A stretch of DNA of 35,204 bases from a virus. The notes beneath the pieces are model-generated. The model did not search any database. It was not told the origin of the DNA and saw nothing but the letters and a program-made list of their open reading frames with translations. Shown in pieces: positions 1-25,172 of this stretch (position 1 is its first letter; every line of letters begins with the position of its first letter). The stretch is taken from IMG/VR virus record IMGVR_UViG_3300025616_000024, positions 1 through 35,204 of that record. One strand, given 5' to 3'. The translations under genes were made by a program, and so were the position numbers.

Positions 1-1
1 C

Positions 2-793
2 GTGATTATCAATATCACGTACATAGGCACAACCTCCCCCAACGCTGTGACCGTGGGGGGTACAGCCGCAACCTATGTCACAGGCAGCAAGGTCAGTTAT
101 AGCACGAACAACTCAACAGAGGCGTGGTATATGTATCGCGCCTCCGCAGCCAATGAAACCGTGAGCGTGGGCTTCGCCTCTAGTCCACGCGTGGCTTGGA
201 ACGCGGTGAGCTACACGGGCGCTACTCTGTCATTTGAGAACGTGGCAACGGGTAACAACACTGGCTCAAGCCCCACGACTTCAACTGTAACGCCCGCTGC
301 GGGTACTCCGGGGCGTATGCTTATCTGCGGCGTGGGCGTGGGCAATTCTGCCAACGCAACGGGCTCGATCACTATCACGGTGAACCGCACTCAGCGTGAC
401 AGCACGCGGGCCCTATCTGGCTCAAGCTCAACGAAGGCCGTCAGCGCGGCTACAGAGGAGTACAGCGACAACTCTGGGTCAGCCGCGCTCACGTCCACCG
501 ATACCAAGTCAAGTTCAACCCTAGACTGGGCTACGTGGGCTATTGGCCTCAAGGGCTCTTTTTACGATGATATGGCCACGCGGTTCAAGCTCTGGGCCCA
601 GAACTGTAAAGACCCAGCTGCGCGGTTCAAACTGACCGTCCAAAACTACAAAGACGCTGCAGCGCGTTTCGTGATGAATGCCCGTACGTTCAATGACGAA
701 GGCACACGGTTCAAACTGGCCTTTCCTAGCGATGCTTGGAAAGACGTGGGCACGCGGTTCAAGATGGTAGTCCAAGGGTACTGTGATGTATAA
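2..793 (+). CDS. Tail fibre/receptor-binding protein, version 2 (5' end missing)
   Basis: A second version of the protein at 34398-35108, whose first 29 residues lie beyond the window start. Residues up to about 185 form a Thr/Ser/Gly-rich, apparently all-beta domain ending in WATWAIGLK. The C-terminus has five copies of a 14-residue repeat (consensus [YFW]KDAATRFKLxVxx) and stops inside a sixth (YCDV). The first 127 nt are identical to 34484-34610, after which identity drops to roughly two thirds. The stop overlaps the start of the next gene by 8 nt. The position in the tail-tip region and the repetitive composition suggest a host-recognition fibre. That function is inferred; I recognise no named family. 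Confidence 0.7.
   Translation: MIINITYIGTTSPNAVTVGGTAATYVTGSKVSYSTNNSTEAWYMYRASAANETVSVGFASSPRVAWNAVSYTGATLSFENVATGNNTGSSPTTSTVTPAAGTPGRMLICGVGVGNSANATGSITITVNRTQRDSTRALSGSSSTKAVSAATEEYSDNSGSAALTSTDTKSSSTLDWATWAIGLKGSFYDDMATRFKLWAQNCKDPAARFKLTVQNYKDAAARFVMNARTFNDEGTRFKLAFPSDAWKDVGTRFKMVVQGYCDV
563..790 (+). repeat. KD-x-A-TRF repeat array in fibre version 2
   Basis: Five tandem units of about 42 nt encode variants of KDxATRFKLxVQN, followed by a truncated unit at the stop codon. Aromatic, KD, TR and [FY] positions are kept while the exposed positions vary. One unit carries a two-residue insertion (around FPSDA). The same unit recurs 21 times in the next gene and once in the version at 34398-35108. 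Confidence 0.85.
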
Positions 794-2882
794 CTATTCA
801 CCCCCCATAGTCACCAAACCGTCTGCTGGACGAGTGGATATAACAAGCCCCACGGGCGGGCACGTTACGTCCGTGATTGTCGGGCCTAACGCCATCACGC
901 CCACGAAACTATTATTCTCACACTTTGAAGGAGAGACCCAGTTTTCGCTTGCCTTGCCTTTCGGGATATTCCCGGACCTCTCTTTGACGGGGACGGCTGA
1001 ATTAGCCGTCGCAACAACTGCGAACAGCAAGTACGGGATAACGGTTCAACCAGTCCCGCCGAAACAAGGGTTCAATGACTTGGGCGGGCTGGATATTATA
1101 TTCACCCTGCAAAGAAAACCCGCGGTTTCATCATGGACGTTCGCCCTTGGGGACAATACGGGCGTATCTGCCTACTGGCAGCCGCCTCTATCCCAAAGTG
1201 AGGTAGACGCTGGGGTCATACGCCCTGCCCATGTAGTCAACTCAATAGCTTTCTATCTCACAACCCCTAGAGTAAATGAGGAAGGCGGGAAAGACTACAA
1301 AGTGGGCAAGGTTGCCCATCTTTATCGTATGCAGGCGAATGGCCACTGGTTCAGTTGGTCAATGCCTGATGCGACCCATCTTGTCTTGTCAGATGATGAT
1401 GGGTACTTACAGACCGCGAATTACCCGTTAACGATTGCCCCAGTTGGCGATACGATTGGGTACAGTTCAGTTGGCGGCAGCGGCGCATCTACCAGCTTAA
1501 TCGCGCAGCTTTACGGGACATATACTGCTCCCGCTGGCAAGGCTGTAACCTCATTAAATGCTTATATCGTATCTGGCGGCGGCGGCGGTACCGAAATGGG
1601 TATTTACACATTCCAAAGTGGGGCTCCGTATGCGAAAGTGGGGAGCCCCCCATACGTCGCGAGAGGTACGGGGCCGACTTGGAGAACGGTATCTGTATCA
1701 ATTCCGTTGACCAATGGGACTACTTATACCGTAGCATGTGTCCCAACACTAATTGCGTTAGACGTTGTGGGCGGCGTCTATTATTGCGGGGAAACCAATG
1801 GCCAGTGGGACAGCTATTGGGTCAACACCGCTGGCCAAAACTATATCTGGTCTTTTTATGCAGGCGTAGGCAACGCCCCGATAAACGCATGGAAAAACAT
1901 AGCCACGCGGTTCAGGCTGGTTGTAACCAAGGACATATCAACCCGTTTCAAGACCGTAGTCCAAAAGTACAAAGACGCCCAGACACGCTTTGCTGTAACG
2001 GTTCGGGCATATAAAGACGCCTCAACGCGTTTCAAGTTGACAGTAAGGGCCTTCAAGGACGCTGCGACCCGTTTCAGGCTAGGCGTAGCTAAAGACATTA
2101 CGACACGGGTCAGGATAGCCGTTCAGGGGTTCAAGGATTCTGGCACCCGTTACACCGTCACCACTGGGACAGTGGCCTACAAGTTTATCCAGAGCCGTTT
2201 CAGCATAGTCGTAAGGGGTTTCAAAGACGCCCCGACACGGTATAAGGTTTGGGCCCGCCAGTACAAAGACCCGGCGACCCGCTATCTCCTGACGGTACGC
2301 GGATGGAAAGACGCGGCTGCACGGTTCAAACTCTACGGCACAAGTTACAAAGACGTTGCAACCCGATACAGGCTGTACGTGCAACGGTTCAAGGACGCGG
2401 CCACGCGGTACGCCCTCACGGTACGGGCTTTCAAGGACGCGGCCACACGATACAGGCTGGTAGTACAGGCGTACAAAGACGTTTCGGTCAGATACCGCCT
2501 CAATGCACGGGGCTGGGGCAACGCAGCCTCACGGTTTATCCTGACGGTTCTCAACTATGCCGTGGCCAAGACCCGCTTTGTCTTGGCCACGTATGTATTC
2601 AAGGACGCAGCGGCACGCTTTAAGCTGCGCGTACTGGGCTACAAAGACACGGCCCTGCGGTTCGTAATGAACGGGCTGGGACAGCGGGACGCGGCAACAC
2701 GGTTCGCTTTACAGCTAATCAGCTTCAGAGATGCAGTTTGCCGGTTTAGTGTATGCGTTTATGGAGAACAGTACTCGCTTTCCCTGGCAACAAGGCAAAG
2801 TGGACTCACTGTAAACACCCGCGATGTTTTCTGCAATATGCCGGAACGGGAGATCGCCACTGCCATCTCTCGGGTCTCGTAA
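786..2882 (+). CDS. Large repeat-containing tail fibre / adhesin
   Basis: A protein of 698 residues in three parts: an N-terminal segment (about 1-215), a Gly-rich beta domain (about 220-360, with a run of Gly and a jelly-roll-like composition), and about 21 tandem 14-residue repeats (about 367-660) before a 38-residue unrelated tail. I prefer ATG 786 over GTG 783 because the second copy of this locus has CTG at the GTG position and keeps ATG (35101). It overlaps the previous stop by 8 nt. Size, repeats and position between the baseplate genes and the lysis cassette indicate a fibre or adhesin. No catalytic motif is visible. Confidence 0.7.
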   Translation: MYNYSPPIVTKPSAGRVDITSPTGGHVTSVIVGPNAITPTKLLFSHFEGETQFSLALPFGIFPDLSLTGTAELAVATTANSKYGITVQPVPPKQGFNDLGGLDIIFTLQRKPAVSSWTFALGDNTGVSAYWQPPLSQSEVDAGVIRPAHVVNSIAFYLTTPRVNEEGGKDYKVGKVAHLYRMQANGHWFSWSMPDATHLVLSDDDGYLQTANYPLTIAPVGDTIGYSSVGGSGASTSLIAQLYGTYTAPAGKAVTSLNAYIVSGGGGGTEMGIYTFQSGAPYAKVGSPPYVARGTGPTWRTVSVSIPLTNGTTYTVACVPTLIALDVVGGVYYCGETNGQWDSYWVNTAGQNYIWSFYAGVGNAPINAWKNIATRFRLVVTKDISTRFKTVVQKYKDAQTRFAVTVRAYKDASTRFKLTVRAFKDAATRFRLGVAKDITTRVRIAVQGFKDSGTRYTVTTGTVAYKFIQSRFSIVVRGFKDAPTRYKVWARQYKDPATRYLLTVRGWKDAAARFKLYGTSYKDVATRYRLYVQRFKDAATRYALTVRAFKDAATRYRLVVQAYKDVSVRYRLNARGWGNAASRFILTVLNYAVAKTRFVLATYVFKDAAARFKLRVLGYKDTALRFVMNGLGQRDAATRFALQLISFRDAVCRFSVCVYGEQYSLSLATRQSGLTVNTRDVFCNMPEREIATAISRVS
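1886..2767 (+). repeat. 21-unit array of 14-residue KD-x-A-TRF repeats
   Basis: About 21 units of 42 nt (two are one residue shorter, one or two longer) follow the pattern [YFW]-K-D-[AVS]-x-[TA]-R-[FY]-[KR]-[LV]-x-[VA]-[RQ]-x. Best-preserved units include FKDAATRYALTVRA and FKDAATRYRLVVQA. Alternating polar and hydrophobic residues suggest one beta-strand pair per unit in a solenoid or fibrous shaft. Codon usage differs between units, so these are not very recent duplications. Confidence 0.9.
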
Positions 2883-4489: not shown

Positions 4490-5290
4490 ATGTATTCACC
4501 AACTTTCGGGCATCGTCTCGGCGCGTTAGCCAGCAGGCCGGGGCCTCAAGATCTGCTGATTACCAGCTTCCCGCGCACCGCCTCGAAACGGCCCAAGGCC
4601 TTTACCGAACGCGCGAAACACACGCCGGTCAAGAACCAGGGCAACGCGGGGACCTGTGAAGGTTTCGCCGGCGTCGCTACCCTCGAAGTCAAAGATGTGG
4701 GGGAGCAGACAGTCGGAGATTGCATCAACCTTTCCGAGATGTGGGCATATACCCAGGCCAAGAAGATTGACGGGTACCCCACGGAGGAAGGCACCGATTC
4801 GTACTCGATGTGCCAGGTCATGCTCAACACCGGTTTCTGCGAAGACCAGCTTGACCCTTATTCCGATGCGCACCCGATCGTTGACCGGGCATTACCGGGA
4901 GCCGCCGAGAATGCGGCCAAGTTCAAGATACAGCGCCATGCTTCGGTAACACCTGCAGGGCTCCGGGATGCCATCTGGCAGCGCGGTTCCCTCCTCCTCG
5001 CCATTAAAGTTTATTCGAATTTCGGAGATACCGGCTCCAACGGGCTCGTTCCTTCACCTAGGGGAAGAATCGAAGGTGGTCATGCACTCTGCCTTGTCGG
5101 TTATGAAGATGGCCGGTGCTGTAACGGCTGGTTCGAAATCAAGAACTCATGGGGGCCGTCCTTTGGCGACAAAGGCTATGTTCACATCTCTTATAAAGAC
5201 ATGGCGAAGATTTTCATGGACGCCCGCTCCATCGTAGACCTGACGCCGGCCACGCTAACCAAGCTTTGCGCCGCGCCAAGAGGCGTTTAA
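4490..5290 (+). CDS. Papain-like (C1A) cysteine protease, candidate lysis enzyme
   Basis: 266 residues with ATG 4490 preceded by AGGAGG. The complete papain active site is visible: Gln50 (oxyanion hole) and Cys56 in PVKNQGNAGTCEGFA, His198 in GGHALCLVGYED, and Asn219 in IKNSWGPSFGDKGYVHIS. The usual second Cys of the papain CGSCW motif is Ala53, so that disulphide is absent. There is no signal peptide and no long I29 propeptide, only about 45 residues before the catalytic core. It occupies the endolysin position behind a holin candidate, so it may digest envelope protein during lysis. Other possibilities are virion-associated penetration or intracellular proteolysis. The family call is secure; the role is inferred. 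Confidence 0.85.
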   Translation: MYSPTFGHRLGALASRPGPQDLLITSFPRTASKRPKAFTERAKHTPVKNQGNAGTCEGFAGVATLEVKDVGEQTVGDCINLSEMWAYTQAKKIDGYPTEEGTDSYSMCQVMLNTGFCEDQLDPYSDAHPIVDRALPGAAENAAKFKIQRHASVTPAGLRDAIWQRGSLLLAIKVYSNFGDTGSNGLVPSPRGRIEGGHALCLVGYEDGRCCNGWFEIKNSWGPSFGDKGYVHISYKDMAKIFMDARSIVDLTPATLTKLCAAPRGV

Positions 5291-5823: not shown

Positions 5824-6780
5824 TTATTCCAAATTGTCTACAGGGCTGAATTGCACGTGGGCTTTCATCGCGTCATCCGATCCTATGTCACTCATGTAGG
5901 CGCGAGTCATAGTTAGCGTGGAGTGTCCCAGGATAACCTGAACATCGAACTCACGCGCTCCGTTCCTGAATGAATTGATAGCGAATGTATGCCGGACTGT
6001 GTGGGGTCCTATCTTGACGCCGGTAACACCCGCCCGTCTGAACAAGCGCCGTATCATTATCTGCACGCCGTCCCGGTGCAGCTGCGTCTTCTCCTCGGTG
6101 AGCCACAAGCACGGCAATTCGTATTCCTGTGATAGCAGCCACCACCTCATTAACGCCATGTGCGTCACCTTGCCCATCCTGACGCGTCTTTCTTTTGCAC
6201 CCTTGCCCATGATAGAGATTGTTCCCTGCTTGATGTCCACCTGGGCCCGGTTGATGTGACTCAGTTCGTCGAGTCTCAACCCGGTATCCAGGAACATCAG
6301 GAAGATGGCTTTATTGCGGATCCCCAGGAAAGAGTTGTCGCACAGGCTCAGGATATTTTTTATATGAAGCGAAGTCAGCGGTTTGTGAATTGTTTTAGGA
6401 ATCTTCGGCGGCTTCATATTGGCCATCGGGTTATCGGTGATGATGCCCTCTCTTAGAAGAAAGGATGAAAAACTGTGCAGGACTCGATAATACCTGGAAC
6501 AAGTTTCCGCGCATATGCCCCTGTTTTGGAGCGCGAGCTGGAACTGTCGTATCTGTAAAGGATTGAATGCCGTGGCAGTCCGGGCGAACTCTCGAAGCGG
6601 ATATCCATAGGCCAGAAGCGTGGCGGGGCTCTTCCCCTCCACCTTGCAGGTCATAAGGTAGTAGTCTACCAGGTTGCCAATAGACTCTGTTTGGCTCGTG
6701 CCTTTAGAAAAAAGACTATGTTCTAGGGCAGGCACGCGCTGTGCCTGAGGAAAGTGACTAAGACTATGTTCTAGGGTCAT
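5824..6780 (-). CDS. int: Tyrosine site-specific integrase
   Basis: 318 residues, XerC/D-like size. The N-terminal SAM-like core-binding domain spans about 32-115 and the catalytic domain about 135-310. All catalytic residues are present: Arg169 (TGLRLDEL), Lys193/Lys196 (MGKGAKER), His260 and Arg263 (PHTVRHTF), His286 (LGHSTLTMTRAY) and nucleophile Tyr295. It should integrate and excise the phage at the tRNA-Ile site whose 3' half is at 6817-6858, only 37 bp upstream of the start. No Shine-Dalgarno sequence precedes ATG 6780, suggesting weak or leaderless translation. The first 28 residues contain a duplicated LEHSL segment caused by a direct DNA repeat. Confidence 0.95.
   Translation of the reverse strand: MTLEHSLSHFPQAQRVPALEHSLFSKGTSQTESIGNLVDYYLMTCKVEGKSPATLLAYGYPLREFARTATAFNPLQIRQFQLALQNRGICAETCSRYYRVLHSFSSFLLREGIITDNPMANMKPPKIPKTIHKPLTSLHIKNILSLCDNSFLGIRNKAIFLMFLDTGLRLDELSHINRAQVDIKQGTISIMGKGAKERRVRMGKVTHMALMRWWLLSQEYELPCLWLTEEKTQLHRDGVQIMIRRLFRRAGVTGVKIGPHTVRHTFAINSFRNGAREFDVQVILGHSTLTMTRAYMSDIGSDDAMKAHVQFSPVDNLE
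6712..6776. repeat. Direct repeat pair in the integrase 5' end, arm-site candidate
   Basis: AAGACTATGTTCTAGGG occurs at 6712-6728 and again at 6760-6776, 48 bp apart, within the first codons of int and about 40-105 bp from the attP core. Paired short direct repeats beside an attP core are what arm-type integrase or excisionase binding sites look like. The 48-bp spacing keeps the frame, so a simple 16-codon duplication is an alternative. Confidence 0.5.
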
Positions 6781-7108: not shown

Positions 7109-7726
7109 TTAAAGCCTCCGTACTACTTCGATGACTTTCGCACTGGTCATACAATCTTGAATCTTATGTTTGGAATTATTATTCTCCAACCACAATTCAT
7201 CCGAGTAACGCTTCAACCTGGCTATATGCAATTCTCCGTCGATCATACATGCCACGATATCGCCGTTCTCTACTGCTGCATTTCTATCAACAATGATGGT
7301 GTCGCCATCATTGACAACAGGAGTCAAGCAAGTACCCCGAACAACGTAGCCCTCAACGTGCCTAGCTGATTCTTTGGGGATCGCCCTATAAACATATTCA
7401 GCCAGTTCAGTCGGTGCGCCGGCATGAAACGGGAATTGTGAGTAAACACTTATCCGTTGGACTTCCATTTTACCAGGAGCGAGGGGCGGCAGGGCTGGTT
7501 TTTGAACTGGTTCAGTTGGCTTGCCGTATATCTCTTGGGTTAATTCCTCTATGGGCATCCCAAGCCCTTTCGACAAAGCCTGTAACGTGTCCTCTTGTGC
7601 TGACTTGATGCGGCCTAACTCAATAACAGATAAATGGGAACGCTTGAGGCCTGACGCATCGGCTAATTCCTGTTGCGTCATCCCTTTGTATTCCCTCAAT
7701 TTCCGGATTGCGTAACCCCAGTTCAT
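7109..7726 (-). CDS. CI/LexA-like repressor with degenerate S24 domain
   Basis: 205 residues. An N-terminal HTH_3 domain (about 5-62, MTQQELADASGLKRSHLSVIE) binds DNA, followed by a Pro-rich linker (68-85) and a C-terminal S24/LexA-like fold (about 90-205). In the S24 part the nucleophile motif G-[DM]-S-M is GTCL (131-134), so Ser is Cys133. The general-base Lys of the LexA TVKRL segment is Ala169 in HIARLKR. The domain probably still dimerises but may not self-cleave. The gene is divergent from the Cro-like gene at 7866. Confidence 0.9.
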   Translation of the reverse strand: MNWGYAIRKLREYKGMTQQELADASGLKRSHLSVIELGRIKSAQEDTLQALSKGLGMPIEELTQEIYGKPTEPVQKPALPPLAPGKMEVQRISVYSQFPFHAGAPTELAEYVYRAIPKESARHVEGYVVRGTCLTPVVNDGDTIIVDRNAAVENGDIVACMIDGELHIARLKRYSDELWLENNNSKHKIQDCMTSAKVIEVVRRL

Positions 7727-11740: not shown

Positions 11741-12604
11741 TTGAATAGAGATACCGGGTGGGTGAAGATCCACCGCGCAATATTGACCAGTGGGTACACA
11801 GCAGAACAATTCAAATTTTTTGTATCTGCCATTCTGCTGGCTGAACCTTTAAGATCTAAACATCCCGGCCGCGTTACCCTCCCACTTCGCCGCCTATCTG
11901 ACGAAATCGGCATGTCCTATGCAACCGTTTTCAAGGTAGAAAAAGAGTTGGCAGAACGGGGCGACATAATCATACATCGACACCCCGGAAGGGGTCATGA
12001 AGGGGACCAGGGTTTTACCATTTCGAACTACGAAAAATACCAGGGAAAAGGGTCGCATCAAGCAACCGAGAATGATATACGTGGTGAACAGAATGATATG
12101 CCACGTGAACATTCTGGGAAAAAGAATGATATACGTGGTGAACAGAATGATATGCCACGTGAACAGAATGATATACGTGGTGAACAGAATGATATGCCAC
12201 GTGAACATTCTACGCCTAGTTTTGTGCCTACTAAGAATATAAAGAATATAAAGAATATTAAAGAAGAATATATATACCTTCCGGACTGGTTGGATAAAGT
12301 TGCATGGAATGACTTTTTGGAAATGCGAAAAAACAACAAGGCGACCCCGACAAAAAGAGCAAAGGAATTGCTGATAAAAGACCTGGAAAAATTCAGGGAG
12401 GCCGGGGACGATCCGACCGAAGTTTTGAATCAGTCGATAAAAAATAGTTGGAAGGGGTTATTCCCTTTGAAGGAGAAACAGAATGCCGGAATTAACCAAA
12501 ATCAACGAAATAATCAAGCAAGGTCCGGAGTCGGCCATCTTAAAACCACCGAGGAACTGCTCGCTGGAAACGCCAAATACGACCACGAGCACGGCTATGT
12601 GTAA
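11741..12604 (+). CDS. Replication initiator with internal origin (lambda O-like)
   Basis: 287 residues if started at TTG 11741 (GAGAGG 6 nt upstream); TTG 11678 would add 21 residues. The N-terminal domain (about 1-85) is a winged helix (LPLRRLSDEIGMSYATVFKVEKELAERGDIIIHRH), as in phage replication initiators. Residues 110-156 are a low-complexity linker of six heptads, NDIRGEQ/NDMPREQ, which is simply the translation of the DNA iterons. The C-terminal part (PDWLDKVAWNDFLEMRKN onward) resembles the helicase-loader-contacting domain of DnaD/initiator proteins. A DnaC-like gene follows directly. It should bind the iterons, melt the AT-rich tract and recruit the loader. Confidence 0.7.
   Translation: MNRDTGWVKIHRAILTSGYTAEQFKFFVSAILLAEPLRSKHPGRVTLPLRRLSDEIGMSYATVFKVEKELAERGDIIIHRHPGRGHEGDQGFTISNYEKYQGKGSHQATENDIRGEQNDMPREHSGKKNDIRGEQNDMPREQNDIRGEQNDMPREHSTPSFVPTKNIKNIKNIKEEYIYLPDWLDKVAWNDFLEMRKNNKATPTKRAKELLIKDLEKFREAGDDPTEVLNQSIKNSWKGLFPLKEKQNAGINQNQRNNQARSGVGHLKTTEELLAGNAKYDHEHGYV
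12070..12207. repeat. ori: Replication origin: six 21-bp iterons inside the initiator gene
   Basis: Six 21-bp units sit at 12070, 12091, 12124, 12145, 12166 and 12187, with only a 12-bp spacer after the second. Two types alternate: type A has core ATACGTGGTGAACA and type B has core ATGCCACGTGAACA, both preceded by GAATGAT. The hexamers ACGTGG and CCACGT at the type-specific position are reverse complements, so adjacent units present the motif in alternating orientation. An AT-rich tract follows within 25 bp. Iterons inside the initiator gene beside an AT-rich element are the lambda-type origin layout. Confidence 0.8.
12232..12277. other. AT-rich DNA-unwinding element candidate
   Basis: A tract built on three AAGAATAT-like direct repeats and ending in TATATATACC is about 85 percent A+T in a GC-balanced genome. 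It lies immediately downstream of the iterons, where origin melting would start. In the protein it encodes NIKNIKNIKEEYIY. Confidence 0.65.
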
Positions 12605-13301: not shown

Positions 13302-13516
13302 TGTCACTATCAGGCGAAGATTTAGGCAAGAAGCTGGCCGGGGCGCTGGGAATCCCCTCCGGCAACATCACGGACCTACGGATCATCTGCAAGGCCGGAC
13401 AGGACGCGCAGGTCCAGGTAACACGGATGCTCGAAGAGGACGAGGGCTACAAGACAACCAAAATCGTCGACACTTACGAAATTAAAAGCAAGGTGGTGGG
13501 CGATGGAACTCTCTAA
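13301..13516 (+). CDS. Hypothetical replication-region protein
   Basis: 71 residues, ATG 13301 sharing its A with the previous stop (TAATG). It looks like one small alpha/beta domain (NITDLRIICKAGQDAQVQV, then TTKIVDTYEIKSK), resembling short phage proteins of unknown function near replication genes. It overlaps the next gene by 14 nt. Confidence 0.55.
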   Translation: MSLSGEDLGKKLAGALGIPSGNITDLRIICKAGQDAQVQVTRMLEEDEGYKTTKIVDTYEIKSKVVGDGTL

Positions 13517-14036
13517 GGCAAAAGAAATCGCGGCCGGAATCGTCGCCCAGCTCGCGCCGTACTGTGAAAGGATCGAAGTCGCCGGCAGCATCCGCCGTGG
13601 CCGGCCCGAGGTCCATGACATCGATATCGTCGCGATTCCAGACTCTACGATGGCCTTTTACAAGAGACTGGACGGCATGGGGAAAGTCACCCGGGGCGAG
13701 AAAATCATTACCATCGCGCTCACGCCCCGGTTCAACGCTGAAATATACCTCGCTACGATGGCAAACTGGGCGACATTGCTCCTCATCAGGACTGGCAGCA
13801 AGGACCACAACATCAAACTCTGCCAACTGGCGAAAAGCAAGGGCTTTCAGCTGCACGCCGATGGCAGCGGGCTGGAATGGACTCGCCCTTTAGTGGACCT
13901 GTTTACGGGCAGCGGCGCTCCCGGACATTCTCTCGGTGTCTCCGATATTCAGAGCCATCCCATCATCTGCAACTCCGAGACCGACATCTTCAACGCGCTC
14001 GGGCTGAACTACAAGGCGCCGGGAGAGAGAGGTTAA
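13503..14036 (+). CDS. PolX-family nucleotidyltransferase / beta-like DNA polymerase
   Basis: 177 residues, ATG 13503 after GGTGG. VAGSIRRGRPEVHDIDIVAIP (26-46) contains the GSxRRG phosphate-binding motif and the DxD metal ligands Asp39 and Asp41. The third carboxylate appears as Glu80 in RFNAEIYLA, where Asp is usual. RTGSKDHNIKLCQLAKSKGF (96-115) and an ending of DIFNALGLNYKAPGERG match the thumb of bacterial PolX. It lacks the helix-hairpin-helix N-domain and the PHP exonuclease of full PolX. Possible roles are gap filling or repair of phage DNA. Codon use matches the replication genes around it. Confidence 0.8.
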   Translation: MELSKAKEIAAGIVAQLAPYCERIEVAGSIRRGRPEVHDIDIVAIPDSTMAFYKRLDGMGKVTRGEKIITIALTPRFNAEIYLATMANWATLLLIRTGSKDHNIKLCQLAKSKGFQLHADGSGLEWTRPLVDLFTGSGAPGHSLGVSDIQSHPIICNSETDIFNALGLNYKAPGERG

Positions 14037-14038
14037 AG

Positions 14039-15124
14039 ATGCCTAATGAACTATGCAAATGTGGACTGCCGCTACACTTTATCACTGATGAACATAAAGT
14101 AGGTTGGTGTGATAAATGTAATCAGTTTTCTACACCTGTTCAGCCCCAAGAGCCAATGGTAAGATGTCCGAAATGGAGAGATTGCGATGTAGCGGATGAG
14201 GCTTGCCCACATAGAAAACTACATAAGAAAACGGATAGTTGCAAATATGTCTGTACTAGACAAATAGGCAACAGCCAAGCAAACGCCTGTCTTTATGAGC
14301 CAGTACCAGCTCCGAAAGGGGTTAAGGTTCATGAAGGTATGAAACTGGTAATAGACAAAAGTCCACTTGTCATGTGCGGGAATGATGGTTGTCAAACTGA
14401 CTGTTTCCATATAGCAGGACATACCCAGTCAGTTTGTGAGAAATATCATAAAGACTGTGCAACTTGCAAACCTTATAAGCCAGTACCAGCCCCGAAAGAG
14501 ACAGAGTACAAAAACTGGGATGATTATAATAAAGACCATCCCTTGCCAGTATCTCCAGAGCTAGTAGCCCCGAAAGAGGTTTGCAAAAATTGTCATCAAC
14601 CAAAAGATAAGCATTATGCCGATGGTTATTGTTCTCAATATGGGATTGAGAATAAACAGTTTGAACGTGCAAAGTGGGTAGGTGCAGAGTTTATAGACAC
14701 TCCAGAAGGTGTGGTCTGTGATGAGAAATACCATATTGTTGACGCTAACAAAAAGGTATCAGAGCCTTGTGATAATTGTGGACATGATAAAAGTTGTCAT
14801 GACGAAATGGGATGTAGGTTGCTCCCAACACGCCAGTATTGTTCTTGTAAAAAGTTTGAGACTTTAACTGCCGAACAACAGGAAAAAGAAGTGCAGGATA
14901 TTTATAAAGATTTAGAGTTAGAGCCAGCCAGTATACCAAAGCCTGAAACTACGGCAACGCAATTTGAGATTGATGTGCTAACTCATATTCAGCATGAGGC
15001 TTTACAGGCTCAAGGCGATTGGGCAGGCATTGATGAAGAATATGCGCCCGAATGGACTCACGGCTACAAACTGATTTATAACGAACTCGCTAATTTAATT
15101 GATTGGTTGGAGGCAAAATCATGA
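14039..15124 (+). CDS. Cys-rich multi-zinc-knuckle protein in an AT-rich cassette
   Basis: 361 residues from ATG 14039. About 26 cysteines occur in repeated C-x(1-2)-C ... H ... C modules, for example CKCGLPLHFITDEH, CKNCHQPKDKHYADGYC and CDNCGHDKSCHDEMGC followed by YCSCKKF. Two spacer segments repeat the phrase PVPAPK. The last 75 residues are helical and free of Cys (ATQFEIDVLTHIQHEALQAQ). The DNA is clearly more AT-rich than the flanking genes, with different codon use, indicating separate acquisition. Likely binds several zinc ions; target unknown. Confidence 0.65.
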   Translation: MPNELCKCGLPLHFITDEHKVGWCDKCNQFSTPVQPQEPMVRCPKWRDCDVADEACPHRKLHKKTDSCKYVCTRQIGNSQANACLYEPVPAPKGVKVHEGMKLVIDKSPLVMCGNDGCQTDCFHIAGHTQSVCEKYHKDCATCKPYKPVPAPKETEYKNWDDYNKDHPLPVSPELVAPKEVCKNCHQPKDKHYADGYCSQYGIENKQFERAKWVGAEFIDTPEGVVCDEKYHIVDANKKVSEPCDNCGHDKSCHDEMGCRLLPTRQYCSCKKFETLTAEQQEKEVQDIYKDLELEPASIPKPETTATQFEIDVLTHIQHEALQAQGDWAGIDEEYAPEWTHGYKLIYNELANLIDWLEAKS

Positions 15125-15567
15125 ATAATCCAGAGCCAGAGAACCCTAGACTACTGACCGATGATGAAATCGGCAAGTGCTATGAAAACTCAAAATGCCA
15201 CGAAGTAGACGGGCAGATGGTTATTGACGAAATGTTTAATTTAACAAAAGTTCTCAAAGCTCAAGATGCAAAGACCTTAGCCTCTACCCCTAGCCTGACA
15301 AAAGAAGAAGTACAAGCCATATCAGACCTTGCAGAAGATTGTGAAAACTGCCCAGCTGAAAGAATGTGTTGCCCTGAATGTAGTGAACACCAAAAAACTG
15401 GCATAGCCAAACTTTATGCCATATCAGAGGGTAAGCCTGCCCCTAAAGTAAGCGTAGAGGATATTGCCAAAGTGATAAGGGACTTTGATAGTGCTTACGA
15501 AGATGCTCCAGACATAGCCCTAAAACTTGCCACAGCCATTATTGAAAAGATTAAGGGGGCTGCATGA
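15121..15567 (+). CDS. Cys-cluster hypothetical protein, second gene of the AT-rich cassette
   Basis: 148 residues, ATG 15121 overlapping the previous stop (ATGA). A cluster CENCPAERMCCPEC at about 74-87, plus Cys20 and Cys26, suggests metal binding; the C-terminal part (KVSVEDIAKVIRDFDSAYEDAPDIALKLATAIIEKI) is helical. Its base composition matches the gene upstream, so the two probably arrived together. Function unknown. Confidence 0.6.
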   Translation: MNNPEPENPRLLTDDEIGKCYENSKCHEVDGQMVIDEMFNLTKVLKAQDAKTLASTPSLTKEEVQAISDLAEDCENCPAERMCCPECSEHQKTGIAKLYAISEGKPAPKVSVEDIAKVIRDFDSAYEDAPDIALKLATAIIEKIKGAA

Positions 15568-15983
15568 CCGAACGACAGCAGCCTTACAAAACCTCACGAG
15601 CCATCAAAGAGGTTTCAGCAAGCGACACTATGTCCGAGGCCCATCTGCAGGACGCCATAATCGAACTTGGTCATGTCCTGGGATGGGAAAAGATAGCCCA
15701 CTTCAGACCGGCGCTCATGAAGATGCACGGCGCCCTGGTTTATCGCACGCCGGTATCAGCTGATGGCAAGGGCTTCTTCGATCTGCTCATGGCGAACCCC
15801 GCACAGCGCCGCATTGTGGCCATCGAGTGTAAAAGCGAGAAGGGGAAACCATCGCCCGAACAACTTGAGTGGGAGATAACGTGGCGTAACAGCGGCGGCG
15901 AGTACTTTCTTTTCAGGCCAAGCGACTGGCTGAACGAAAATATATTCAAAACTCTTGCGAATCAGGCACAAATAGGCACATAA
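15564..15983 (+). CDS. VRR-NUC nuclease
   Basis: 139 residues, ATG 15564 overlapping the previous stop. PD-(D/E)xK residues of the VRR-NUC family are visible: Glu26 (SEAHLQ), Asp73 (GKGFFDLLM), Glu88 and Lys90 (IVAIECKSEKGK) and Gln100 (SPEQLEW), with the family's FLFRPSDW near the end. Stand-alone VRR-NUC proteins are common in phages, with proposed junction-resolving or end-processing roles in recombination and packaging. Base composition returns to that of the main genome here. Confidence 0.85.
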   Translation: MTERQQPYKTSRAIKEVSASDTMSEAHLQDAIIELGHVLGWEKIAHFRPALMKMHGALVYRTPVSADGKGFFDLLMANPAQRRIVAIECKSEKGKPSPEQLEWEITWRNSGGEYFLFRPSDWLNENIFKTLANQAQIGT

Positions 15984-15999
15984 TTATAAGTGAGGGAAA

Positions 16000-16176
16000 T
16001 TGGAACAAAAGCTGCTCAAATTCATCGAACAGCGCACGGACAAGGCAATAAGTAACGGACTGCAGTACGGAAAGCTGAATTTCGAATTGACAATACTAGC
16101 TGGGAAGATAGTCGAAATCAAGGAAAAACCGGAGGCTAATTTCAAGTTGGAAGAGATATTAAAAGCACTTAGTTAG
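16000..16176 (+). CDS. 58-residue hypothetical with TTG start
   Basis: TTG 16000 has GAGGG 5 nt upstream. The product is a charged helical protein (EQKLLKFIEQRTDKAISNGLQ ... KLEEILKALS). It is the last gene before the terminator at 16200. The absence of competing frames and a good ribosome site support it. Confidence 0.5.
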   Translation: MEQKLLKFIEQRTDKAISNGLQYGKLNFELTILAGKIVEIKEKPEANFKLEEILKALS

Positions 16177-16199
16177 TTAGCCTGGGTCGGAACCGATAG

Positions 16200-16245
16200 G
16201 GCGAGCTTAGAGACATAGCGTCTCGGCTCGCCTTTTTGTTTTTAA
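16200..16245 (+). terminator. Intrinsic terminator
   Basis: GGCGAGC (16200-16206) pairs with GCTCGCC (16226-16232), with a second inner pairing AGAGAC/GTCTC, followed by TTTTTGTTTTT. It closes the replication operon; the next gene restarts with its own AAGGAGG site 10 nt after the T-run. Confidence 0.85.
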
Positions 16246-16254
16246 GGAGGTTTC

Positions 16255-16584
16255 ATGGGCAGACCGATAGGCAGCAAGAACAAGCATCCCGCAATCATCC
16301 CGTCAAGGGGCGCTGGCAGGCCGAAGCGCAGGGCTCCAACTGTTCCAAAACTTCGACAGGTTGAGTCAGTCTATCCGCCCTGTCCCGGGTGCGGCGGCCC
16401 GCTTCTCGAGGCGTCCCTGGGGCGGCGCTGCGTCAACATGGGCTGCTCCAACTGGCATGGAGTGGGAGCGCAGAGCTTCAAGGGCGGGCTCCTGCACAAC
16501 AGGTTCAAGACCAAGGAGCTGAAGCCCGGCGAGTGGGCCGCTCACGGCAACGGGGCGTTCAAGGTGATCGACTATGATGTGTAG
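16255..16584 (+). CDS. AT-hook / zinc-ribbon DNA-binding protein
   Basis: 109 residues, ATG 16255 after AAGGAGG. The basic N-terminus contains GRPIGSKNK (AT-hook-like) and a second GRPKRR. The core has CPGCGGPLLEASLGRRCVNMGC, a four-Cys zinc ribbon. The C-terminus is short and globular. Probably binds DNA non-specifically or as a small regulator at the end of the early region. Confidence 0.65.
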   Translation: MGRPIGSKNKHPAIIPSRGAGRPKRRAPTVPKLRQVESVYPPCPGCGGPLLEASLGRRCVNMGCSNWHGVGAQSFKGGLLHNRFKTKELKPGEWAAHGNGAFKVIDYDV

Positions 16585-16592
16585 GAGGGATT

Positions 16593-16844
16593 ATGGCTGT
16601 TGAAATTTATCCACCAACGAAGAATTATTATTGTATTCAATGTGGTGCGCTTATGAAACACTTGAAAAGTTATATTGCGCTTTATAATCCTATATCTGGC
16701 GATCCTATTTGGCAGATAATATATTCGTGCCCAAATAAAACAAAGTCACTATCAAGTATGTTTTTCGGTGGGCATTCTGCATTTACTGACCAGTGGGAGG
16801 AACATAAAATGATTACCACTTACCCATCAACAACTCGGCGGTGA
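16593..16844 (+). CDS. Small AT-rich hypothetical with CxxC
   Basis: 83 residues, ATG 16593 after AGGAGGG. CIQCG near residue 14 and a single Cys at about 46 (YSCPN) suggest an incomplete zinc ribbon. Base composition is much more AT-rich than the flanking genes, resembling the cassette at 14039-15567. No family recognised. Confidence 0.5.
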   Translation: MAVEIYPPTKNYYCIQCGALMKHLKSYIALYNPISGDPIWQIIYSCPNKTKSLSSMFFGGHSAFTDQWEEHKMITTYPSTTRR

Positions 16845-16853
16845 GGTGTGCTT

Positions 16854-17354
16854 ATGATTCACTGGTACAGTTACACTATCTTCCGGCACACCCGCACTCA
16901 AACATTCTGGGCGTTACAGGAAGCAGACTACTTTGAAGCAGACCGCTGGCCCCCTGAACCTCAAGTAGATCCCGTGAACAATGACAAGGGCGAGTACATG
17001 ACGGATGTACTTATCGACGATGAAAAGACAGGCAAGAAGAGATGGGCAGAGCAAGTCAGGGTTGGGTTATCGGTTGCAGCCGGGGCACAAGGCCACCAGG
17101 CTCAAGCAGAAGGGCGATTCTGTAAATGCCGGTGCATCATAGGCGAAATCAATAAACGCCTCGCATTGACCAAGCATGACGGGAAGGTGCTTTTGCAGGA
17201 GATAGAGCGGGGCAAGGTCAGGGACATAGACGGTCTGTCCGATGTGGCTCTTATCGCGTTGACCTACATCTCAGGCAAAGACCGCAGGGTGCAAAGTTAC
17301 TCCAATTTCAAGGGGCATTGGAACTATTCGAGAAAGGTTGAGAGGGTAGTATAA
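16854..17354 (+). CDS. Hypothetical protein before the packaging module
   Basis: 166 residues, ATG 16854 with GAGGTG upstream (the in-frame GTG at 16848 lies in that site). It contains CKCRC around residue 93 and a C-terminal stretch (GLSDVALIALTYISGKDRRVQSYSNFKGHW). Position before the terminator, tRNA and terminase region would suit a late regulator, but nothing in the sequence proves it. Confidence 0.5.
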   Translation: MIHWYSYTIFRHTRTQTFWALQEADYFEADRWPPEPQVDPVNNDKGEYMTDVLIDDEKTGKKRWAEQVRVGLSVAAGAQGHQAQAEGRFCKCRCIIGEINKRLALTKHDGKVLLQEIERGKVRDIDGLSDVALIALTYISGKDRRVQSYSNFKGHWNYSRKVERVV

Positions 17355-17419
17355 ATCATACTAACAAAAACAAGGGGCTAGTATTATGTTGACAAAAAGT
17401 GATAGAATTAACGATGTAG

Positions 17420-17453
17420 GAGTCAGAAGTCTGTAAACTGGCTCTTTTCTTTT
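17420..17453 (+). terminator. Intrinsic terminator before the tRNA
   Basis: GAGTCAG (17420-17426) pairs with CTGGCTC (17438-17444; one G-U pair) across an 11-nt loop and is followed by TTTTCTTTT. A TTGACA hexamer at 17389-17394 lies 26 nt upstream but has no convincing -10 at 16-18 bp, so attenuation is possible but unproven. Confidence 0.65.
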
Positions 17454-17457
17454 GCAA

Positions 17458-17533
17458 CGTGGGCAGGACAAGCGGTTAAGTCGCAGGGCTCATAACCCTT
17501 GAGGATTCGGTCCGACTCCGAAGCCCGCTACCA
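17458..17533 (+). tRNA. tRNA-Met(CAT), initiator-like
   Basis: A 76-nt cloverleaf with encoded CCA. Acceptor CGTGGGC/GCCCGCT pairs at positions 2-7 (one G-U) with an unpaired C1/T72, the hallmark of bacterial initiator tRNA. D-arm GAC/GTC with GG in the loop. Anticodon arm CAGGG-CTCATAA-CCCTT has anticodon CAT and three consecutive G-C pairs (29-31/39-41), also an initiator feature. Variable loop GAGGA. T-arm TTCGG-TCCGACT-CCGAA, where the loop departs from TTC at position 55. CAT could also be a lysidine-modified tRNA-Ile2 or elongator Met, but the C1/T72 mismatch plus GGG/CCC favours the initiator type. Confidence 0.85.
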
Positions 17534-17641
17534 AAAAGCCCTACCTCCTTGCGGCGCGTCGGGATTCATCTCCCCGGCGCATATCGGGCTCGGGGTTACT
17601 CCTTCCCTTTTCAGAGCCCCCAATTATGAAAATGTGAAATT

Positions 17642-18289
17642 ATGATACTTAAAACCATCCCTCTTTCAAAGATTAACCCGGCGGCCTACAACCCGCGTAA
17701 AGACCTCCAGCCATCCGACCCGGAGTACAAGAAACTCAAGAAGTCGCTGACCGAGTTTGACTGCGTGGAACCTCTGGTTTGGAACGAGACCACCGGCAAC
17801 CTCGTGGGCGGGCACCAGCGGCTTAAAGTTCTGAAGGACCTGGGCCGGACCGAGGTTGAGGTATCGGTGGTGGATCTGGATGATGCCAAAGAGAAGGCGC
17901 TCAATCTGGCGCTGAACAAGATCAGCGGCGAGTGGGACCTGCCCCGGCTGAAGGACTTGCTCGAGGAGATAAATACCGGCGCCTTTGATATCGAGGTCAC
18001 GGGTTTCGATGATAAAGAAATCGAAGAGCTGATGACGCAGTTTCACGTGCCATGCGAAGGTCTGACAGACGATGACGCTATCCCTGAGAACGTAGAGACA
18101 ATTTGCAAGACGGGAGACCTGTGGCAACTCGGAACTCATAGGCTATTGTGCGGGGATGCTTTAATTATCACAGACCTTGAGAAGCTCATGGGCGGAGCGA
18201 AAGCCCAACTTGTCTGGACTGACTGCGACGTAATCATAAAACGCTGGGAAGATTTTACAGGTAAAAAGGCAGTTAAACTCGATGTCTGA
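17642..18289 (+). CDS. ParB-domain protein, remnant of a ParB-DNA methyltransferase fusion
   Basis: 215 residues. Residues 1-90 are a ParB/Srx-like nuclease domain (LSKINPAAYNPRKDL, then LVGGHQRLKVL), and 95-135 the usual helical connector. KTGDLWQLGTHRLLCGDA (156-173) is the start of the N6-adenine methyltransferase found fused to this domain in phages. After AQLVWTD (188-194), where the catalytic [DN]PPY should follow, the sequence jumps to CDVIIKRWEDFTGKKAVKL, which resembles the normal C-terminus of the same fusion. The catalytic domain is therefore deleted in frame. It lies just upstream of the terminase genes, the usual place for this protein. Confidence 0.75.
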   Translation: MILKTIPLSKINPAAYNPRKDLQPSDPEYKKLKKSLTEFDCVEPLVWNETTGNLVGGHQRLKVLKDLGRTEVEVSVVDLDDAKEKALNLALNKISGEWDLPRLKDLLEEINTGAFDIEVTGFDDKEIEELMTQFHVPCEGLTDDDAIPENVETICKTGDLWQLGTHRLLCGDALIITDLEKLMGGAKAQLVWTDCDVIIKRWEDFTGKKAVKLDV

Positions 18290-18662
18290 CAATGCTGTAA
18301 AACAGCGAATCATAGGAAAACCCTTCCCAAAGGGCAAAACGGGCAACCCCCACGGGCGCCCGCCCAAGATTCACTGCGTCACATCGCTCCTGGCCGAACT
18401 GCTTAACGGCGATCCAGAGAAGGTCAAGGCGAAATGGGTCAAGGGCAAACCGACCGGGGCCATGATCGTCGCGCTCGCCATGTTCGCCAAGATGGGCCGG
18501 GGAGACTTAACGGCTATTAAAGAGGGGTTAGATCGTGTCGAGGGCAAGGTAAAGGACACGGCTGATATAACCACCAACGGGCAGTCCTTAAATACGACGA
18601 CGATAAACGTGGTAAGCCAGGAAGCGAAAGCCATAACGGAAGCTCTTTGTAATGGTGAATAG
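18282..18662 (+). CDS. Terminase small subunit-like protein (DUF5681-type)
   Basis: 126 residues, ATG 18282 overlapping the previous gene by 8 nt and ending in overlap with the large subunit. IGKPFPKGKTGNPHGRPPK (11-29) is the DUF5681 signature found in phage proteins next to terminases. The remainder is helical with a Thr/Asn-rich C-terminal linker. It probably recognises phage DNA for packaging; position is the main functional evidence. Confidence 0.65.
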   Translation: MSDNAVKQRIIGKPFPKGKTGNPHGRPPKIHCVTSLLAELLNGDPEKVKAKWVKGKPTGAMIVALAMFAKMGRGDLTAIKEGLDRVEGKVKDTADITTNGQSLNTTTINVVSQEAKAITEALCNGE

Positions 18663-19855
18663 TGAAGCTCGACACAACCTCGATATATGTGCAGAACGGG
18701 GCTGCATGGCTGGCCCGTAACTCTGGAATCAGGCGCCGCGCCTTAAACGAAGGCGGCACATCATCCTCAAAGACGTACTCAATCCTTCAAGTCTTAATTT
18801 TAATCGCCCGTAGTGCCACTACACCGACTCTTGTATCGGTTGTAAGCGAGTCCCTGCCCCATTTGAGAAGGGGCGCGATGAGAGACTTCTTTGCGATTAT
18901 GGGTGAATCGCCATCTAACAATCCCCGGTACAACATGAGCGAACACGTCTACGACTTCGGCAACGGGAAGATAGAGTTCTTTTCAGCCGATGAGCCTTCC
19001 AAGATGAGGGGCGGTAGGCGTGATGTTCTCTTTATCAACGAAGCTAATAACGTCGGCTATGACGCTTTTAAAGAACTAGACATACGAACCAAGCTATTCA
19101 CGTTCCTGGACTGGAACCCTGTAAGCGAGTTCTGGGCGCATGAACAACTCTTAAACAAACCCGAAAACAAGTACATCCACTCGACCTATCTGGACGCTAT
19201 GAACGTCCTTCCGCCGGAGGTGGTTAGGAACATCGAGTCAAACAAAGACTCCGACCCAAACTGGTGGAACGTCTACGGGCTAGGAAAACTCGGCAGGGTT
19301 GAGGGGCTCGTCTATCCTGTGTTTGAAATCGTGGACGCCCTTCCGGAACATGGCCAGGTCGCATACGGCCTTGACTTTGGTTTTGCCGGCGACGAGGCGG
19401 CGCTTGTAAAGAACGTTATCATCCCTGCACACGACAAAGAACTCGGCCAGGTCTTTTCTCAAGAAATAATCTACGCCAAGAACCTCACGAATCAAGATCT
19501 GTCCTTGAAGATGGAACAGGCCGGGGTTAAAAAACATTACGACGAGATCTTTGCAGATTCTGCTGAACCGAAGTCGATCGAAGAACTTCACCGGCTCGGC
19601 TGGAACATCAAACCATGCATCAAGGGCGAAGGATCCGTAGAGTTTGGGCATCAAAAACTTCGTCAGTATAAACAATTCTGGACGAAAGACTCGTTAAACG
19701 GCATCAAAGAACAACGCAACTTCCGCTACATCGCTGACAAAGACGGCAAGTTGACAGAGAAAACGGCGCATAACTGGTCACACATCATGGACGCGAGAAG
19801 GTACGGAGTTCTCGGAAAAGTGGGCGGCGTCCAAATCGGTATCTTTTATGCGTAA
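18662..19855 (+). CDS. terL: Terminase large subunit
   Basis: 397 residues starting at GTG 18662, which overlaps the previous stop. The ATPase domain has a Walker A-like LNEGGTSSSKTYSI (28-41) and Walker B DVLFINEANNV (about 120-130) with Glu next to the hydrophobic strand. The nuclease domain shows YGLDFGFAGDEAAL, IFADSAEPKSIEEL and a final NWSHIMDARRYGVL, the three acidic clusters of the RNase H-like fold. Pattern matches PBSX/Terminase_3-type enzymes. It packages DNA into the prohead through the portal encoded next. Confidence 0.93.
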   Translation: MKLDTTSIYVQNGAAWLARNSGIRRRALNEGGTSSSKTYSILQVLILIARSATTPTLVSVVSESLPHLRRGAMRDFFAIMGESPSNNPRYNMSEHVYDFGNGKIEFFSADEPSKMRGGRRDVLFINEANNVGYDAFKELDIRTKLFTFLDWNPVSEFWAHEQLLNKPENKYIHSTYLDAMNVLPPEVVRNIESNKDSDPNWWNVYGLGKLGRVEGLVYPVFEIVDALPEHGQVAYGLDFGFAGDEAALVKNVIIPAHDKELGQVFSQEIIYAKNLTNQDLSLKMEQAGVKKHYDEIFADSAEPKSIEELHRLGWNIKPCIKGEGSVEFGHQKLRQYKQFWTKDSLNGIKEQRNFRYIADKDGKLTEKTAHNWSHIMDARRYGVLGKVGGVQIGIFYA

Positions 19856-19864
19856 GGGTGAATT

Positions 19865-21802
19865 ATGAATTTACCGTGGTCAAAAAAGAAAGAAGCGCCC
19901 ATTGCATACAACAACGGCTCCGGCGTCGTGAACTTCAACACCGCTCCTGGACGCCAGGACATGACTCAATTTCTTAAAGCCTACGGAGAGGACGGCTGGC
20001 TGCACGCTGCAGTCTCTCGCATCGCTCAGTCCTATGCCGAAACCGAGTGGAAGCTCTACAAGAAAGACAACAAGACCGGGGAGCGCGAGGAAATCCTGCA
20101 GCACCCCCTCCTAGACCTCATGGCCCGCCCCAATCCTTACCAGTCCGGGCAAGACCTCGAAGAGATCCTGTGCAAATTCTATCTGCTCACCGGCAAAGCC
20201 TACCAGGCCAAGCAGTACAACATGGGAAAGCAGGAATTATGGCTGATCCCCTCGCCTTTCATGAAACCGGTCCCCGACAAACGAGAGTTCATCAAAGGCT
20301 ATGTTTACGAACGGAACGGCGAACGAGTCACGTTCGAACCCGGAGAAGTGATCCCCTATATCAATACCGACCCGTGGAATATCTACGACGGAGTGGGCCC
20401 TGCACAGGCGATCGGACTCGAGCTGGATATGTCGTCTTATATGCGCCAGCACAACCGAAACTTCTTTCTCCGCGGGGCTGTTCCAGGGCTCATCATTTCG
20501 AACAAGAACGGAGCGACACAAGAAGAGGTTGACCGGCTTGTCGAAAAACTGAAATCAAAACACCAGGGTTATGGCCGCGCTTTCGAGACGCTGTTCCTTT
20601 CGGGCGATTGGGACGTGAAAGAAGCCACTATCTCTCAGAAGGACATGGACTTCGTCGGCCTGGCCAAATGGACGCGCGATGCGACACTGGGGGGATTCGG
20701 ACTGCCTCCGACTATGATCGGTGTTGCGGAGAATGCGAACAGGTCCATAGCGGAGACCGCCGAATACACCTACGCGAAATGGACACTCAAACCCCTGCTC
20801 AACTTCTTTAAGCGTAAAAAGAATGAGTTTCTTGTCCCCGATTTTGAGAAAGACGGGGAAACCCTCGAGATGGATTTTGTCGATCCTGTCCCCGAGAACC
20901 AGGACCTTAAAAAGAATACGGCTATCGACGGCTTCAAGGCGGGAGTTATCACCCGCAACGAGGCTCGCGACATCATGGGATTTAACCCGGACAAGACGGA
21001 GCTGGGAGATGAGTATTATACTCCTCCGCCATCCTTGAGCAATGACTCCATTCCTCCTGCTGCAGACGCTGCTAAAGAGATAAAAAAAAAGAATATTTTA
21101 GCCACTATTGAGGAGAAGGACGCTTACTGGAAGGATTACGTCAAGGGTACAGAGGCGCACGAGAAAATCCTAATAGCCGCGCTTCATGAAGTCTGGCAGT
21201 CGCAAAAGAAGGACGTTTTAACAAAGTTCAAAACAGATGCCCGCCCGGAGCTGGACATCTCGAAGGCCAAGAAAGACTATCAGACATTTATCGAGGACCC
21301 TCTGGAGGATGCCCTGCTAGCAGCCATCAAGAAGGGCATGCAGCTCGTTGAACCCAGAACACCCCACAAAGATACGCCTATACCTCAGATACTGAACGCC
21401 CGGGCGCTACGCTGGCTGCAGACCCGGCTCGGATGGGCGGCAGAGCAGACCTCAGAGGAAACAGCAACTCTTCTTTCTGGCGTAATCGCGCAGGCTTACG
21501 CTGACGGCTTCGGTGCAGACAAAATAGCCAACCTTATCAGCGCTTTATTTGATGGGTTCGACCAGGTGCGAGCCCTTAAAGTTGCCCGGACAGAAGTCAT
21601 GAGCGCTAGCAACCAGGGCGCCATCGAAGGATACCGGGAGTCGGGTGTTGTTTCAACTGCAACATGGTTCACCGCATCCGACGAGCGAGACTGCGATGAA
21701 TGCGACTCGATGGACGGCGACACCGAGGAACTTGACGACACTGAGGGCGTTCTGCCTTTGCACCCAAACTGCAGATGTATCTGGCTGGCCAATGTGGACT
21801 AG
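19865..21802 (+). CDS. Portal protein fused to a MuF/SPP1-gp7 domain
   Basis: 645 residues, ATG 19865 after GGGTGA. Residues 1-390 are an HK97-type portal (DGWLHAAVSRIAQSYAETEWKLYKK, YNMGKQELWLIPSPF, FLRGAVPGLIISNKNG, GVAENANRSIAETAEYTYAKWTL). A Lys-rich linker (about 395-420) leads to a C-terminal MuF-like head morphogenesis domain (about 420-645) ending in RALKVARTEVMSASNQGA, DERDCDECDSMDG and LPLHPNCRCIW. In most phages these are two genes. The dodecameric portal would therefore carry 12 copies of the MuF domain. Confidence 0.9.
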   Translation: MNLPWSKKKEAPIAYNNGSGVVNFNTAPGRQDMTQFLKAYGEDGWLHAAVSRIAQSYAETEWKLYKKDNKTGEREEILQHPLLDLMARPNPYQSGQDLEEILCKFYLLTGKAYQAKQYNMGKQELWLIPSPFMKPVPDKREFIKGYVYERNGERVTFEPGEVIPYINTDPWNIYDGVGPAQAIGLELDMSSYMRQHNRNFFLRGAVPGLIISNKNGATQEEVDRLVEKLKSKHQGYGRAFETLFLSGDWDVKEATISQKDMDFVGLAKWTRDATLGGFGLPPTMIGVAENANRSIAETAEYTYAKWTLKPLLNFFKRKKNEFLVPDFEKDGETLEMDFVDPVPENQDLKKNTAIDGFKAGVITRNEARDIMGFNPDKTELGDEYYTPPPSLSNDSIPPAADAAKEIKKKNILATIEEKDAYWKDYVKGTEAHEKILIAALHEVWQSQKKDVLTKFKTDARPELDISKAKKDYQTFIEDPLEDALLAAIKKGMQLVEPRTPHKDTPIPQILNARALRWLQTRLGWAAEQTSEETATLLSGVIAQAYADGFGADKIANLISALFDGFDQVRALKVARTEVMSASNQGAIEGYRESGVVSTATWFTASDERDCDECDSMDGDTEELDDTEGVLPLHPNCRCIWLANVD

Positions 21803-21813
21803 GAGATTAAAAC

Positions 21814-22824
21814 ATGCCTAAAGCAATCGAAAAGATTATCAAGTCTTATTCTGTGCAGGTCAAGGCCGTCGAGGGGCAAAACAGGACGCTCCGGTTTGTG
21901 GCCTCCTGTGAGACCTGTGACCGGGACGGGGAGGTTGTCAGTGCCGACGGGTGGGTATTTGAAAACTTCATGAAGAACCCTGTTTTCATGTGGGCGCACC
22001 AGTACGACCAGCCACCGATCGGCAAGGTCGTTGCAATTAGTGTGGCGGACGGCAATGTGATAGAGGATGTGGAGTTCGCCGACGCCGAGACCTACCCATT
22101 CGCGGATATCGTTTACCGCCTTTACCAGGGCGGTTTCCTCAATGCCGTGTCAGTCGGATTCATCCCGATTGAGTGGGAGACCGGCGGCAAGAAAGAGGGA
22201 GATCCCCGCAAACGCTACACCAAACAGGAAATGCTTGAAACTTCCGCGGTCCCTGTTCCGTCTAACCCGGATGCCCTGCAGCAGGCCCGCAGCGCGAAGG
22301 TTATCTCCCTTAAAGAGATGCGGCTTGTAAAGAAGTCTTTTGAGGCCGTAGAAACCAAAACCCTGGCCGAGGATATCCGGGATGCACCGATTATAGACAA
22401 GACCGAGCCGCTTACCCAGGACGCGCTGGCCGATGAGCTTGATTACGTCCTGTGTTCTATCCGGGAAGTCGGATTGAATGAAAAGAATACCCCGATCGCA
22501 AAGGAGCTCATGGAAACATTGAAACGCCTTACAGGAAGCGACATTCCTGTTCAAGATAAATCCATGCCAAAGAAAACCACCGAAGCAATAAAGACCGCCT
22601 GCAAAGAGGTTCAGAATTGTCTCGATGGGATGAAGGCGCACCACAAGGCGCACAACGAGTTCCATAAGACAAACACCGAAGCCCTCACCGGGTGCCTTGA
22701 AAGCCTGTCCGCAATGTGTGGGGAGGAACCTGAACCCGAAAAGTCAGTCGAATCCGAGAGCGAAACGTCAAAAGCTCTCAAGAATCTAATCAAAGCAGTC
22801 GAATCTAAACTAGGAGAAAAATAA
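21814..22824 (+). CDS. HK97-type prohead protease with C-terminal scaffold-like region
   Basis: 336 residues, ATG 21814 after AGGAGA. The protease domain (about 10-165) shows FVASCETCDRDGEVV, catalytic His62 in MWAHQYDQPPIG and Ser113 in LNAVSVGFIPIEW, the HK97 gp4/U35-family pattern. The C-terminal 150 residues are charged, helical, and end in a coiled segment (SETSKALKNLIKAVESKL), likely acting as the internal scaffold. It processes the capsid protein encoded directly downstream. Confidence 0.9.
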   Translation: MPKAIEKIIKSYSVQVKAVEGQNRTLRFVASCETCDRDGEVVSADGWVFENFMKNPVFMWAHQYDQPPIGKVVAISVADGNVIEDVEFADAETYPFADIVYRLYQGGFLNAVSVGFIPIEWETGGKKEGDPRKRYTKQEMLETSAVPVPSNPDALQQARSAKVISLKEMRLVKKSFEAVETKTLAEDIRDAPIIDKTEPLTQDALADELDYVLCSIREVGLNEKNTPIAKELMETLKRLTGSDIPVQDKSMPKKTTEAIKTACKEVQNCLDGMKAHHKAHNEFHKTNTEALTGCLESLSAMCGEEPEPEKSVESESETSKALKNLIKAVESKLGEK

Positions 22825-24080: not shown

Positions 24081-24108
24081 ATCTAACTGTTTAACAGGAG
24101 AAAATATA

Positions 24109-24579: not shown

Positions 24580-24603
24580 TTCCCTAATGAACGGGAGTAA
24601 AAA

Positions 24604-24639
24604 CGAGGGGGAGATAAAGGCTTTAACTGCTCCCCCTCG
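24604..24639. other. 10-bp-stem hairpin between head genes
   Basis: CGAGGGGGAG (24604-24613) is perfectly complementary to CTCCCCCTCG (24630-24639) over a 16-nt loop. No T-run follows on the plus strand, so it is probably an mRNA-stabilising or processing element, or a leaky terminator, in the highly expressed capsid region. Confidence 0.6.
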
Positions 24640-24689
24640 CCACACCGCCATCTTGAAGCCGAGAAAATCTAAACGTATCGAGGTAAAAA

Positions 24690-25157: not shown

Positions 25158-25172
25158 AAAGAATCCCTCCGT

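Follow-up and report, generated by a model that had tools for sequence, protein, structure and literature searches.

Two diverged versions of a fibre-like gene on one phage contig, probably alleles of a mixed population

Two versions of the fibre-like gene at the contig ends

The IMG/VR record IMGVR_UViG_3300025616_000024 was analysed over its whole length of 35,204 bases (the window). It carries a fibre-like gene in two diverged versions, version A at the contig start and version B at the contig end, and all features of this locus lie on the plus strand. Version B is a complete open reading frame (ORF; 34398-35108, 236 aa). The reading frame of version A spans 2-793 and lacks a start codon within the contig; this is provided by the 86 bases that precede 34484, with the ATG and the first codons at 34398-34483. 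When circles are built by joining the contig at 34483/1, both versions are intact, and A encodes 292 aa on a circle of 34,483 nt and B 236 aa on a circle of 34,315 nt.

Both versions are framed by the same flanking sequences. The upstream flank lies inside the gene at about codons 30-71, and its copy at 1-127 equals that at 34484-34610 base for base; the match is exactly 127 nt long and is broken at 128. The downstream flank covers the 3' end of the variable gene and the beginning of its downstream neighbour, whose ATG at 786 stands just ahead of the stop codon at 791-793. Its copies, 784-889 and 35099-35204, are identical over exactly 106 nt, where the second is cut by the contig end.

Between the flanks lie two variable arms that form the C-terminal part of the gene, 656 nt in A (128-783) and 488 nt in B (34611-35098). 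Divergence sets in abruptly. The arms differ at 141 of the 411 nt (34%) in 137 alignable codons, against 0 of 126 in the flank (p = 6e-20), which excludes chance. Arm A contains five copies of a 14-residue repeat unit and arm B one. The difference in arm length, 168 nt, is exactly four units of 42 nt, and the reading frame is preserved. The initial annotation had described these flanks and arm lengths, arms about two thirds identical, and five repeat units against one; its coordinates are exact to the base, and a recount of the repeats gave the same numbers.

Recombination at the arm boundary

A relative of the variable gene from another phage, L007, provides a third allele. It is encoded once on a 43-kb record (G002), and its arm contains three repeat units. 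Comparisons were scored over 126 nt of flank and 411 nt of arm. In the flank, A and B are identical, whereas A and L007 differ at 31 of 126 positions. In the arm, A differs from L007 at 80 of 411 positions (19%) and B from L007 at 131 of 411. Thus, the divergence between A and L007 is even across the boundary (p = 0.21), while the A-B differences in the arm exceed those between A and L007 (p = 2e-6) despite the identical A and B flanks.

Because A is nearer to L007 than to B within the arm, yet equals B upstream, the tree topology switches at the boundary. On this three-way comparison, the allelic difference is real and recombinational, as the initial annotation had proposed when it favoured recombination or cassette replacement over drift. 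Arm B, which stands apart from both A and L007, is likely the newcomer. This argument makes no use of the identity or the length of the upstream flank, which are partly imposed by the assembler.

Assembly of both versions into one contig

Both versions probably share one contig because of how the genome was assembled. In a k = 127 de Bruijn graph of the union of circles A and B, the sole branch vertex is 1-127 and the sole merge vertex is 784-910. The contig start coincides exactly with the branch vertex. Metagenome assembly by metaSPAdes with the k list 33, 55, 77, 99, 127 is on record (PMC7311315), and the present record was presumably assembled at k = 127 likewise. On this view, the upstream repeat of 127 bases is an overlap left by assembly, as such a graph would yield. 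Its exact length and perfect identity are therefore expected and do not count as separate evidence on the biology. What does inform on the biology is the sharp point at which divergence begins.

These observations are best explained by two alleles of one fibre-like gene in a mixed population of a circular, temperate siphovirus-like phage, both traversed by the assembler (estimated probability about 0.88). The genome would be a circle of about 34.3-34.5 kb. The alleles would share an N-terminal part of 71 codons, continue into a C-terminal part that is 656 nt long in A and 488 nt in B, and come together again where the next gene begins. Having opened the circle at the branch vertex, the assembler would have passed through A, gone round the genome and entered B, leaving both alleles on one linear contig. 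The C-terminal cassette would have been exchanged by homologous replacement, probably with B incoming, and the conserved 5' region of the gene and the gene that follows would have served as flanks.

Several points weigh against this interpretation. The contig breaks off after 106 nt of the downstream flank, 21 nt under the 127 of a complete graph edge, and the value k = 127 is read from one contig end alone. The assembler may also have collapsed flank identity beyond k. The case is built on an assembled contig and not on reads, and allele frequencies and linkage are not seen directly. Exact DNA patterns from both flanks retrieved no close relative spanning the locus with A or B alone from the viral collection. 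The function of the gene also lacks support from any family match.

Alternative explanations

A tandem duplication, in which one genome holds B, an unseen linker and then A, with one copy diverged or replaced, is unlikely. It would account for two versions with identical flanks on one contig and for the absence of exact end repeats that would mark the record as circular. The contig itself contains no sequence joining the two copies. However, A has no 5' end in the contig, and the bases that A needs are exactly those before 34484. The contig start exactly 127 bases ahead of the divergence is an assembly signature, and the homologous locus is single copy in the 43-kb record of L007. Identical flanks around a centre that differs by 34% would also demand a replacement event. 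The missing start of A, the contig start at the branch vertex and the single copy in the L007 record thus favour population alleles over duplication. Of the two readings that the initial annotation had left standing, alternative fibre alleles walked through by the assembler is the one that gains from the L007 comparison, the graph and that single copy, and the tandem duplication loses ground on the three points just named.

A small cassette array is still less probable. Here, both fibre versions would stand in tandem in one genome, recombination would swap the C-terminal region of the gene being expressed, and 14-residue units would be traded with the adjacent 19-repeat gene. A nearest-neighbour comparison of the units gave no sign that the extra units of A were recently copied from that gene (best match 30/42 nt).

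Also improbable is a chimeric join, in which the B end comes from a different phage that shares the flanks through recent recombination. Such a join would fall in mid-gene, yet the frame and the gene order are correct on both sides. Two IMG/VR records from other samples carry parts of the phage (blastn), one at 99.97% identity over 14566-32893 and the other at 100% over 13539-23755, and the backbone is therefore that of one phage. What chiefly separates a chimeric join from the allelic explanation is the extent of the B genome that is alike.

Programmed diversification within one phage, by a diversity-generating retroelement or DNA inversion, is very improbable. Fibre-like genes are typical targets of both systems. 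However, the A-B changes are spread over the source bases (A 25, T 32, G 39, C 45), fall at codon positions 1-3 in the numbers 34, 24 and 83, and leave 50 synonymous against 41 nonsynonymous changed codons, unlike adenine-directed mutagenesis. As these changes are heavy in third positions and not adenine-directed, they point to old divergence imported by exchange and not to recent hypermutation. No reverse transcriptase or invertase was found among the ORFs scanned, a scan that left out some small ORFs, and the window contains no inverted repeats of at least 18 nt. On the changes and the ORFs scanned, the locus does not fit a retroelement target, which would show adenine-specific changes together with a reverse transcriptase and a template repeat.

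Identity of the gene and its repeats

The variable gene lies downstream of the tape measure gene (29285-30694) and of tail-related genes, and thus within the tail module. Neither allele matches Pfam, PHROG, NCBIfam or PDB sequences, so membership of a tail fibre or receptor-binding family was not found in these libraries. The same libraries gave no match for the next gene (786-2882, 698 aa), which contains 19 copies of the 14-residue repeat [FY]KDxATRFxLxVxx in common with the variable gene and probably encodes a second fibre or shaft protein. Searches with tblastn for the fibre gene and the repeat gene in phage and plasmid records found no match. Scans of genome contigs for both genes returned no relative either, and they consequently offer no host lead.

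Structure models of allele A and of the repeat protein reached mean pLDDT values of 34 and 38, too poor for fold searching, and regular beta strands are only hinted at in the repeats. The low-confidence model of the repeat protein suggests one beta strand per 14-residue repeat.

A tail-fibre or host-range role is plausible, given the position after the tape measure and tail genes, the fibre-like repeats, the exchange, and a module common to otherwise different phages. The initial annotation had called this a tail-fibre gene; the tail location and the fibre-like repeats agree with that name, while the family libraries contribute nothing to it. The product is likely a virion surface or receptor-contact protein, and its exchangeable C-terminal part would alter what the particle binds.

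A module shared with other phages

Two further genes belong with the variable gene and the repeat gene to a module shared with L007. The first (33126-33836, 236 aa) is 85% identical in L007 and the second (33898-34380, 160 aa) 93%. The variable gene is 73-76% identical and the repeat gene 49%, and the L007 homologue of the latter has 31 repeat copies. Outside the module, the L007 record gives weak matches only, to a ParB-like gene (17642-18289) and a small pre-terminase gene (18282-18662); portal and capsid are not shared. A 97-kb viral contig (L023) carries the first module gene at 66% identity, the repeats, and a second gene that has diverged to 33%.

Since L007 shares essentially just the module with the window, the module appears to move between phages. 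In moving between unrelated backbones and in having a C-terminal part open to exchange, it behaves as a host-recognition module might. At L007 8585-13674, the fibre-like module stands between a head morphogenesis gene and head protease and capsid genes, an odd place for tail genes.

Relation to known variable loci

Metaviromic or metagenomic islands are loci where near-identical phages carry diverged variants of homologous genes and where assemblies break (PMC3909814, PMC7468147). In cryoconite phages, divergent variants in such islands co-exist in otherwise near-identical phages, and assemblies break there as well (PMC7468147). The present locus resembles these islands in its near-identical backbone, highly diverged homologous variants, assembly break and explanation by recombination. 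Diverged homologous variants occupy one locus of a presumably shared backbone, as deduced from a single contig, and the topology switch against L007 traces them to recombination. Unlike the published islands, the locus has both variants on one contig, was seen without read recruitment, and concerns a gene family without a database match.

Swapping of the C-terminal part of T-even tail fibres (Tetart et al., 1998, cited in PMC7468147) offers a second parallel, with a conserved N-terminal part, an exchangeable C-terminal part and sharp boundaries. A sequence relation to T-even fibres was not found, and the adhesin function here is putative. As outlined for Alteromonas schitovirus A5 (PMC10579305), a multi-gene recognition module can be common to distantly related phages of different backbones, which compares with L007 and the window. 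The genes differ from those in that outline, and function is deduced here from context.

The locus joins the variable islands already described at recognition genes of phages and is an ordinary case of swapping the variable region within a surface-protein gene. A single contig sufficed to locate a site at which two recombined alleles of such a gene are probably present in one phage population. A caution for metagenomic contigs also emerges: identical flanks at the two ends can be an overlap of the assembly graph. A record of this kind lacks an exact end repeat and may be taken for a linear fragment, even though the genome is probably circular and complete, opened at an allelic bubble. Neither the fibre-like protein nor its 14-residue repeat has a counterpart in the family libraries searched.

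Other features of the phage genome

By its gene content, the phage is temperate and siphovirus-like. The window encodes a tyrosine integrase (5824-6780), a CI-like repressor (7109-7726), a capsid protein (22824-24080; tblastn to annotated capsid proteins), replication genes, terminase, portal and tail genes. The first 8 kb have no DNA-level relative among phage records.

A second polymorphic site lies at 14324-14565. This segment is present in IMGVR_UViG_3300004805_000136 and absent from IMGVR_UViG_3300025436_000018, which is 99.97% identical downstream of the site and only 77% upstream. The latter record stops at 32893, precisely where the tail gene ahead of the fibre module terminates with its stop codon; variation in this region may have caused a further break.

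A papain-family (C1) cysteine protease gene is found at 4490-5290 (PF00112, E 2e-16) and a short DNA polymerase beta-like nucleotidyltransferase at 13503-14036 (PF14791 thumb, E 2e-12). Repeated 21-nt units of the AGAATGATATACGTGGTGAAC type occur at 12069-12211 within the replication initiation gene and may, as in lambda-type phages, mark the origin of replication.
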